DNA of 64,000 bases from Methanoculleus formosensis (GTDB taxonomy: Archaea; Halobacteriota; Methanomicrobia; Methanomicrobiales; Methanoculleaceae). Made by a program: the position numbers and the translations under genes. The notes beneath the pieces were generated by a model. That model saw only the letters and a list, made by a program, of their open reading frames with translations. It had not been told where the DNA came from and ran no database searches. Shown here one piece after another: positions 13,012-15,192 of the stretch. The DNA lies in assembly GCF_025384765.1 (NCBI RefSeq), contig NZ_VHLL01000001.1, positions 434,001 to 498,000 on the forward strand, read 5' to 3'. Each line of letters begins with the position of its first letter. Within the stretch, counting starts at the first letter, position 1.

Positions 13012-13905
13012 ATGAAGTGCAGCAAGTGCCACCGCGACGCGATTCTTTTCCAGCGATACTCCGGGCTGCACCTCTGCGAGCAGCACTTCAACCGGGATTT
13101 CGAGGCGAAGGCGAAGCGGGCGATCCGGGAGCACCGCTGGATCAGGCCCGGAGATACGGTGGCGGTGGCGCTCTCGGGGGGGAAGGATTCGAGCGCCGTC
13201 CTCTTCTTCCTCCACCGGCTCCTCGGCGAGCGCCGTGACGTTCGGCTGATGGCGATCACGGTGGACGAGGGGATATCCGGCTACCGTGACCCGAACCAGG
13301 CCCGCGAGATCGCGGAGAACATGGGCGTCCCCTGGGTGACGGCAACATTCGTCGACGAGTACAGGATCACGCTCGATGAGATCGTAAAAAGAAGGGGAAC
13401 CCGGCTCTCCTGCTCCTACTGCGGCGTCCTCCGCCGGGCGCTGATGAACCGGATCGCTCGCGAGCATGGGGTCACGAAGTTCGCCTACGGGTTCAACCTG
13501 GACGACGAGGCCCAGTCGGTCCTGATGAACGCTCTCCGGGGTGATGCCGACCGGCTCACCCGCCCCATGCGGGAGGTTGAGGGGATGGTTCCCCGGATCA
13601 AGCCGTTCATGTACATCCCGGAGCGTGAGGTGGCGCTGTATGCCTTCCTCCACGTCGAGGGGTTCGACCTTGCGGGCTGCCCCTACGCGGGCGACGCTCT
13701 CCGGGGAGACGTCCGCGGCATCCTCGACGACTACACCTACCGCCACCCGGCGACGAAGTACTCGCTTGTGAACCTGGGCGAGGCCCTCCGGGAGCCGGAG
13801 AGGGTTACCGGCGAAGGGCTCCGGGTCTGCGAGCGGTGCGGTGAGCCGTGCGGGCGGATCTGCCGGACGTGCCAGGTACTTGACGAGGTTCGGCGGGGAG
13901 CCTGA
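13012..13905 (+). CDS. tRNA 2-thiolation ATPase, TtuA/Ncs6 (TIGR00269) family
   Basis: This 297-residue PP-loop enzyme activates a tRNA uridine with ATP for sulfur insertion. An N-terminal zinc finger (CSKCHRDA, residues 3-10, with CEQHF) precedes the PP-loop VALSGGKDSSA (about 52-62). CSYCGVLRR (about 139-147) carries the central cysteines of TtuA/NcsA, and a C-terminal CERCGEPCGRICRTC finger closes the protein. Whether it modifies U34 or U54 cannot be told from sequence. It is divergent from rio2 with overlapping promoter sequences. Confidence 0.88.
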   Translation: MKCSKCHRDAILFQRYSGLHLCEQHFNRDFEAKAKRAIREHRWIRPGDTVAVALSGGKDSSAVLFFLHRLLGERRDVRLMAITVDEGISGYRDPNQAREIAENMGVPWVTATFVDEYRITLDEIVKRRGTRLSCSYCGVLRRALMNRIAREHGVTKFAYGFNLDDEAQSVLMNALRGDADRLTRPMREVEGMVPRIKPFMYIPEREVALYAFLHVEGFDLAGCPYAGDALRGDVRGILDDYTYRHPATKYSLVNLGEALREPERVTGEGLRVCERCGEPCGRICRTCQVLDEVRRGA

Positions 13906-13982
13906 GTGGAAGGCGCCTGATAGGGGATTGGTGTGTGTCTACCAACCGCAGGGGTGAAGCGTCAAATGGAACGTTTCCGGGA

Positions 13983-14002
13983 TCACCCTATTTATAGGGT
14001 GA
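13983..14002. repeat. Near-perfect 20-base palindrome
   Basis: TCACCCTATTTATAGGGTGA has 9-base arms around a TT centre. It is the most A/T-rich spot downstream of the thiolation gene. It could be an operator, a promoter element (TTTATA inside) or a terminator hairpin; nothing decides among these. Confidence 0.5.
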
Positions 14003-14053
14003 ATTCCGAGGCAATTTTGTTCTACTCGCTCAACCCATCAACCGATACCCTCT

Positions 14054-14182
14054 GGATATCGCCATCGGGGAGACGGCCCGCCCCTGTCTCTGCAACGTAA
14101 AGGAGCACTGTAGCCCCCACCCCGCCCGGCCTCCGGCCTCCTCCCCCGCCCCGAGGGGCGAGGGCAGTGCGTGGCGATAGCC
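14054..14182. repeat. 129-bp inverted-repeat unit A (MITE-like)
   Basis: The ends GGATATCGCCAT (14054-14065) and GTGGCGATAGCC (14171-14182) are inverted repeats matching at 10 of 12 positions. The interior carries a small GC hairpin and the core GGGCAGTGCGTGGCGATA (14162-14179), also found in unit B. No coding potential is visible. Confidence 0.55.
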
Positions 14183-14255
14183 GGTGGGAAGCCGTGTCCC
14201 GGGAGCGAGTTGGCTATCTATCTTTTCCGGGATCTCCCATGCAGTGGACCGTGGG

Positions 14256-14384
14256 GGTATCGCCACTGGGGGTGGGGCCGACGGGGAGGGGGGAGCATCC
14301 CCCCTCCCCTGTCTCTATCCGTCCTGAATATCTCTAGCCCCCCACTCCCGCCCCTCGAGGGGCAGGGCAGTGCGTGGCGATACC
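14256..14384. repeat. 129-bp inverted-repeat unit B (MITE-like)
   Basis: The ends GGTATCGCCAC (14256-14266) and GTGGCGATACC (14374-14384) are perfect 11-base inverted repeats. The unit has exactly the same length as unit A and shares the CCCCTGTCTCT block, the small GC hairpin and the terminal core. The copies are 73 bases apart and imperfect, so the duplication is not recent. Confidence 0.6.
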
Positions 14385-14469
14385 TATTGGAAATCCGTCT
14401 ACAGAATATGCAATGTTCTAAAACGGCAGGCGGTAGAGGTTAACGTCGCTTGACCAGCGCCTCGCCCCT

Positions 14470-15192
14470 CTACCGCATCGCGAGACACCCGCCGGTCACG
14501 TCGGCGAATATCTCCATAAACTGCTCCGGGTGATTCAAAAACGCGACCGACCGGGGCCGCCCGATCAGGTCGTAGAGCCCGACCTCTCTCTCGATCCCGA
14601 TCTCCGGGACCTCCATCGGGTTGCAGTAGCGCACCGGGGGCGCGTCGGGGTAGCGCGGGTTCTTCACCAGCGCCCCGCCCTCCATCTCATAGTACGCGGC
14701 TCCTTTCAGGTCCGCGTAGGGGCCGTAGTTGCTTGAGAACTCCGACGAGACGAGGTTCGCCATCACGAGATCCTCTCTTGCCGGGTTGATCGTCACGTGG
14801 CCGTAGCCCGGCGGGATCAGGATCTTGTCACCGGCGGACGCCTCGATCATCACCACGTCGTCGGCATCGCGGGTCTGGAGGAGGTAGTGCCCTGTCCCCT
14901 CGAGCACCTCGTAGATCTCCGGGTAGAGTTCCCCTGCCAGGTTCTCGGTGTGGTAGTGGCCCTTTGTCTTGACGTACTCCCCGCAGAGTGTCCGGGCAGG
15001 AATGACGGTGATATCGTAGCGAATGTGTTGCTGCCGGAGCCATTCCCGGTCGCTCTCATTCCGGGCGAGATCCCGGTACATAAAATAGAGGGGGTGATCG
15101 GAGGTACAGGTCGGATCTGCGAGCACCTCCCGCATTTCCTCGATTATCCTTACCTGCGGCTCCGGCTTAGGGCCGTCCCAGTACCCGTTCAT
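14470..15192 (-). CDS. pgiA: Archaeal cupin-type glucose-6-phosphate isomerase
   Basis: PgiA interconverts glucose-6-phosphate and fructose-6-phosphate using a metal-bound cupin fold unrelated to the common isomerase. In the 240-residue protein the cupin motif GHYHTENLAGELYPEIYEVL (about residues 88-107) holds the His-His-Glu metal ligands plus the conserved ExYE. The second motif PPGYGHVTIN (about 137-146) gives the last His. The gene overlaps the COG1361 gene upstream by four bases (ATGA), so both are likely translated from one message under the same control. Confidence 0.93.
   Translation of the reverse strand: MNGYWDGPKPEPQVRIIEEMREVLADPTCTSDHPLYFMYRDLARNESDREWLRQQHIRYDITVIPARTLCGEYVKTKGHYHTENLAGELYPEIYEVLEGTGHYLLQTRDADDVVMIEASAGDKILIPPGYGHVTINPAREDLVMANLVSSEFSSNYGPYADLKGAAYYEMEGGALVKNPRYPDAPPVRYCNPMEVPEIGIEREVGLYDLIGRPRSVAFLNHPEQFMEIFADVTGGCLAMR

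Follow-up and report, generated by a model that had tools for sequence, protein, structure and literature searches.

Part of the repeat described here is already known. Chashchina et al. (2021; PMC8044849) described rPQS, repetitive potential G-quadruplex sequences of Methanomicrobiaceae, which are intergenic, lie in about half of the cases between tail-to-tail genes in an orientation unrelated to that of the genes, and carry a motif that forms a G-quadruplex (G4), hairpin or triplex in vitro. What we call the L module of our element is this motif, with four G runs, a CTGAC central loop and then a C-rich tract; its consensus has G-run loops of 1, 3–5 and 1 base, with CTGAC among the central ones, and a C3TC3 tract. 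The main text of that paper, however, treats the G4 and C-tract only, without the R module, the T1 and T2 outer ends, the TATCGCCAC repeats, the arrays or the inversion reported below.

Other systems share further traits with the element. REPINs and BIMEs, as described in the available text of PMC3116915 and PMC2817692, combine two inverted hairpin units into one, form mosaic arrays, are intergenic and reach high copy numbers, and in the available part of PMC3733652 a guide tetranucleotide such as GTAG adjoins the REP hairpin. Our repeat likewise consists of inverted pairs of palindromic units, arrayed and outside genes (2 of 119 segments fall in a predicted ORF), but its genome has no RAYT family, its units are longer with unlike arms, its arrays have a single orientation, and its core inverts. 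MITEs, from the corresponding part of PMC10969869, are similarly short, non-coding and multicopy with inverted ends; here, in contrast, no target-site duplication was read at three loci and no parent transposon with matching ends was found in the element's own genome. Site-specific invertible segments, in the portion of PMC5903667 available, occur in both orientations between inverted repeats, as the core does here between species, but in our case no recombinase gene adjoins the window locus (its neighbors encode a TtuA-like protein and glucose-6-phosphate isomerase, GPI), the repeats are very short, no gene lies inside, and the variation is between species. In the open-access literature searched we found no description of the composite element and its dynamics, and only PMC8044849 covers part of it. 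Nothing recognizable as this element appears in the available parts of the M. marisnigri genome paper (PMC3035220), of the RepRanger paper (PMC12306157) or of a paper on prokaryote satellites (PMC6749651), the last of which names two short families of tandem repeats in Methanoculleus. Thus, while the L hairpin has been known since 2021 as a G4 motif, we found neither the whole element nor the flipping of its core described, and the inversion is our main new result.

Anatomy of the window array and of the intact unit

The window, the whole 64,000-nucleotide stretch of the Methanoculleus formosensis genome that was analyzed, contains two 129-bp units, A (14054–14182) and B (14256–14384), which the first-pass annotation had described as a tandem pair with inverted termini, a shared inner hairpin and no coding capacity. 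We confirmed the units, their termini (GGATATCGCCA/TGGCGATAGCC in A and GGTATCGCCAC/GTGGCGATACC in B) and the C-rich/G-rich inner hairpin common to both, and the tandem, structured character of the repeat, with no sign of coding, was borne out. The equal length, although real, is a coincidence: unit A has lost most of the L hairpin, whereas a different deletion has taken 22 bp of R from unit B. The 129-bp limits need extension, since the element runs about 23 bp further on each side as an outer end of type T1 or T2. Units A and B form one array and are both damaged copies of a repeat that is dispersed between genes. In the intact unit, T1 is followed by TATCGCCAC, the L hairpin, a short variable spacer, the R hairpins, GTGGCGATA and T2. 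The features of the window locus, which lies between convergent genes ending at 13905 (TtuA-like) and 14470 (GPI), are as follows.

13012..13905, + strand: upstream neighbor, TtuA-like tRNA thiolation protein (Pfam TtuA_LIM_N and ATP_bind_3)
14040..14064, + strand: degenerate outer end T2 with TATCGCCA, left end of the array (pattern match with 3 mismatches; same flank in orthologs)
14057..14093, + strand: L-module remnant of unit A, hairpin lost (A–B alignment; fold no better than shuffles)
14109..14179, + strand: complete R module of unit A, with GGCC hairpin, CCGCCCC/GGGGCG hairpin and GTGGCGATA (module match R 1–70)
14171..14179, + strand: inverted end GTGGCGATA of unit A
14180..14202, + strand: outer end T2 of unit A (pattern match 14172–14196, minus strand)
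14236..14257, + strand: outer end T1 of unit B (pattern match 14244–14265)
14258..14317, + strand: L module of unit B, TATCGCCAC and G-quadruplex motif/G-C hairpin (module match L 1–60; fold)
14339..14382, + strand: R module of unit B without the small GGCC hairpin (module match R 29–70; alignment)
14374..14382, + strand: inverted end GTGGCGATA of unit B
14383..14405, + strand: outer end T2 of unit B, right end of the array (pattern match 14375–14399, minus strand; ortholog-conserved flank)
14470..15192, − strand: downstream neighbor, glucose-6-phosphate isomerase (Pfam GPI)

Copies for the anatomy were taken from three genomes, that of M. formosensis itself (G000) and those labeled G003 and G014, and merged into 119 segments. 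The intact unit measures about 145 bp from TATCGCCAC to GTGGCGATA; most of the 62 cores that passed a 125–165 bp length filter are 140–150 bp long. The outer ends are CCCATGCAGTGGACCGTGGGGG for T1 and GCCGGTGGAAAGCCGTG... for T2. The L module combines a G4 pattern with a strong G-C hairpin, followed by about 20 variable bases, and of 131 L modules whose ends are complete, 103 contain a general G4 pattern. The R module consists of a small GGCC or GCGC hairpin and a CCGCCCC/GGGGCGG hairpin. The consensus fold, for which 50 of the 62 cores were used, contains 33 pairs, and four of these vary on both sides: two belong to the GGCC/GCGC hairpin, where 16 and 17 of 50 cores are changed, and two to the R hairpin, with 3 of 50 each. 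Unit B folds much better than its shuffles (z −5.16, 0/200), and unit A no better (z 0.15, 104/200).

L and R alternate, a module being apparently missing at four places, and more than two modules occur in 27 of the 119 segments; arrays run head-to-tail with a period of about 200 bp, and none of the 119 segments is mixed in orientation. Among 41 gaps from an R to the next L, 11 measure 61–63 bp, 21 measure 79–84 bp, one is 74 bp and eight are longer. The two classes (61–63 and 79–84 bp) are about two helical turns apart. All ten back-to-back end pairs less than 200 bp apart in the M. formosensis genome join one T1 to one T2, as head-to-tail arrays require; four more close end pairs point the same way, their partner end probably having been missed by the pattern. 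At one locus (G014:C41 compared with G000) the arrays differ in their number of whole units, and the break lies within repeated T2 sequence.

Copy number, gene context and neighboring repeats

A search for further copies, which had been proposed as the check on units A and B, found many. A 161-bp query around unit B gave at least 93 matches in the M. formosensis genome (40 of 98 candidates scored) and matched 39 of 61 genomes, including 33 of the 34 other Methanoculleus genomes; copies lie in 39 separate segments of the M. formosensis genome. The T1 pattern with TATCGCCA occurred at 46 places in that genome and the T2 pattern with TATCGCCA at 87, part of them in a different 190-bp repeat, with no match for either reversed-pattern control. 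Across the genus, T1 was found in 33 of 35 genomes, compared with six reversed-pattern control matches in 5 of 35. T1-type ends are few in G012, G013, G002, G023, G017 and G029 and absent from G020 and G034; G002, G023 and G029, poor as they are in these ends, still hold at least 17 core matches each. A 17-base piece of the R end matched at least 114 stretches in named genomes, and among the 80 matches listed, 73 were titled Methanoculleus, Methanomicrobiales or Euryarchaeota and seven were bacterial, the latter looking like chance matches. The same 17-mer, the only part compared, matched three viral contigs exactly (L382–L384), and a plasmid search for the repeat gave no match. A chance local duplication, to which a lack of further copies would have pointed, is ruled out by these genome-wide copies, and the original observation therefore survives.

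Copies favor the 3' ends of genes, whether they occur singly or in arrays. With genes predicted by a simple ORF rule, the nearest genes of the 119 segments were convergent in 57 cases, codirectional in 46 and divergent in 4, with 10 segments at edges and 2 inside a predicted ORF, while 111 control gene pairs in the same segments were convergent in 23 cases, codirectional in 62 and divergent in 26 (chi-square p 7e-8, with non-independent loci). Between codirectional genes the core pointed with the genes in 24 cases and against them in 22. Both the tail-to-tail share and the independence of orientation agree with PMC8044849.

At 15 of 30 loci, orthologs of the window spacer had no L or R match at the sensitivity used, at least four of these (G008, G017, G020 and G034) having gaps, or another or no matched downstream neighbor, and several orthologs contain other repeats or almost nothing. 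In G032, G030, G031 and G012 (L073, L075, L076 and L077) no L or R module was found in the spacer, which carries a further repeat based on TCACGCGAAGCCGCGAAGAACGCGAAG; repeats seem to accumulate there.

A second palindromic repeat, GCGACTGCCGGAACGGCAGGAGC...GAGCACC..GGTGCGA, lies in frame within the TtuA-like gene, in its cysteine-rich C-terminal region, where it adds 29–98 residues in 8 of 27 usably translated orthologs from the 30 loci (L067, L068, L069, L072, L074, L075, L076 and L079), a situation that we take to be an archaeal analogue of the Rickettsia palindromic elements. The same repeat is also found within L and R modules of the main element (L067, L072, L062, L207 and others), and at several loci it directly follows TGGCGATA, as GGCGATGTCCC..GGGACATCGC. 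The M. formosensis genome also contains a distinct repeat (L188–L199), about 190 bp long and bounded by GAGGTCATCCCAAAA and TTTTGGGACAACTTC; it carries a single T2-TATCGCCAC-hairpin unit resembling that of the main element, and six copies show, by eye, 3-bp direct repeats at their borders.

Orientation of the core between conserved flanks

As judged by the comparison of species, the core inverts between short inverted repeats. Both outer ends could be typed for 71 of the 91 L-R cores in the three genomes: 53 had T1 beside L and T2 beside R, 10 had the reverse, 8 had T2 on both sides and none had T1 on both, an absence with a probability of 9.5e-8 under independent ends in a set that counts orthologous copies in more than one genome. 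Restricted to G000, the count of close inward-facing end pairs was 33, of which 26 were mixed, 7 double T2 and none double T1. On these counts, the core sits in either direction, usually with T1 at one end and T2 at the other.

Detailed alignment of two loci shows where the orientation changes. In the window spacer the core runs one way in G000, G004, G006 and G028 and the opposite way in G003 and G010, while the left flank is homologous up to TATCGCCA in all six genomes, with G010 showing the most divergence; the right flank is homologous in all but G028, which differs there. At the second locus the core of G014 is reversed relative to G000 and G003; the flank on the T1 side is conserved in all three, and about 95 bp aligned on the T2 side are near-identical in G014 and G000, and less alike in G003. 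At both loci the switch point is TATCGCCAC, between conserved flanks.

For a wider view we compared the sequence 24–140 bp outside each core, using 1959 random pairs, whose 99th percentile served as the threshold; because some of these pairs are themselves orthologous, this threshold errs on the strict side. Among 60 orthologous pairs, which are non-independent, 43 had outer flanks that could be aligned, 36 of them direct and 7 crossed, and 17 had no alignable flank. A crossed pair was found at 5 of 27 distinct loci with alignable flanks in three species, namely the window locus, G000:C3:117449, C4:59287, C6:107436 and C6:137888. Absolute orientation differs in 13 of the 60 pairs, most of them with 60-bp flanks at background level, for which it is therefore no proof of inversion in place; a flip count on this basis was set aside as too loose in favor of the flank test. 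At G000:C3:262943 absolute orientation differs from that in G014, yet the pair was scored direct, the flanks having turned along with the core, and at many loci where orientation differs the close flanks have turned over beyond comparison.

Mobility, competing explanations and significance

The suggestion that the units are MITEs holds for their short, non-coding, multicopy form with inverted ends; in the strict sense it lacks support, since their ends are shared with no autonomous transposon seen in the M. formosensis genome. Three loci aligned with shorter orthologs showed no clean insertion boundary, but turnover of the whole intergenic region or an array differing by units, and because they offer no clean empty site, a target-site duplication could not be read; a search for an empty site from the flank of L022 met a region too variable to yield one. 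The M. formosensis genome showed no larger element bounded by these ends: 33 of the 35 neighboring inward-facing end pairs less than 6 kb apart are separated by 82–249 bp; in the remaining pairs, both ends of the 4.5-kb one and one end of the 3.9-kb one (its other end unread) belong to another short repeat. RAYT, the Y1 transposase family PF01797, had no match in the M. formosensis genome, G003 or G014, while across the genus 7 of 35 genomes matched, six above the cut-off. Since neither RAYT nor such a larger element was found in the M. formosensis genome, present mobility is unsupported there, and a RAYT-driven REP is ruled out by the absence of the family from this genome. An insertion-sequence origin was considered for near-identical ends, some at contig ends, which in the regions read turned out to be the other 190-bp repeat and more copies of the main one.

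Taken together, we consider the repeat to be, with somewhat better than even probability, a REPIN/MITE-like, non-autonomous DNA element of Methanoculleus, whose core flips between TATCGCCAC inverted repeats and whose spread is aided in trans. Copies would spread as DNA with the help of a trans-acting enzyme reading the TATCGCCAC/hairpin ends, recombination between the TATCGCCAC inverted repeats, or strand switching from one to the other, may invert the core, and array length may change through recombination between repeated T ends. The bias toward 3' ends could reflect survival where insertion harms least, and the element may perhaps also serve as a structured 3' end that works in either orientation. 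It is rather unlikely that the family is instead a passive, structure-driven repeat, with hairpins provoking replication strand switching and neither a dedicated enzyme nor a host function. Strand switching alone would then correct arms, invert the core and duplicate units, and quasi-palindrome correction and inversion at short repeats are known processes. The covarying arms (GGCC/GGCC versus GCGC/GCGC in 16 and 17 of 50 cores, R-hairpin pairs in 3 of 50), the mere 9 to 11 bp or so of inverted repeat bordering the core, and the species-to-species variation in array length, where the breakpoint falls in repeated T2 sequence, are all consistent with such a process, which nevertheless leaves unexplained the similar copies in 39 separate segments of one genome and the T1/T2 ends kept at so many of them.

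Enrichment between convergent genes, near absence between divergent ones, independence of orientation (24 versus 22) and the hairpin, triplex or G4 formed by the L motif in vitro (PMC8044849) would suit a putative host-useful bidirectional 3' element, whether terminator, transcript-end stabilizer or G4/triplex switch, selected at convergent gene ends, where flipping would be tolerated because both orientations work. The absence of L or R matches from 15 of 30 orthologous window spacers (at least four with gaps or another or unmatched neighbor) and the lack of a T-tract after the hairpins in the consensus argue against it, and we regard it as somewhat less probable again. More doubtful still is the idea that dozens of genome-wide cassettes bounded by TATCGCCAC are flipped by a putative dedicated recombinase that reads the G4/hairpin core. 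The first-pass annotation had also offered a duplicated structured RNA. The folds are indeed stable and conserved, with some compensatory change, but unit A folds no better than chance, the core lies without regard to gene direction and it is found inverted between fixed flanks, so that a DNA element is the likelier reading. In positions 13800–14700 of the window no Rfam family scored above its gathering threshold (two microRNA matches fell far below), which rules out a known RNA, and an RNA gene family or riboregulator in general seems very improbable.

From what had been published as a list of G4 motifs in methanogen genomes, these results derive an element whose ends, modules and dynamics are defined. 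They also place a REPIN/BIME-like architecture in archaeal genomes where the REP-linked transposase family was not found. If the genome-wide cassettes were real, the 3' ends of many genes would carry a switchable structured segment. Culturable methanogens make the question testable whichever way flipping works: if it is enzymatic, there would be an enzyme to find; if it is passive, the family would be a natural record of the DNA rearrangements that hairpins and G-quadruplexes cause over time.
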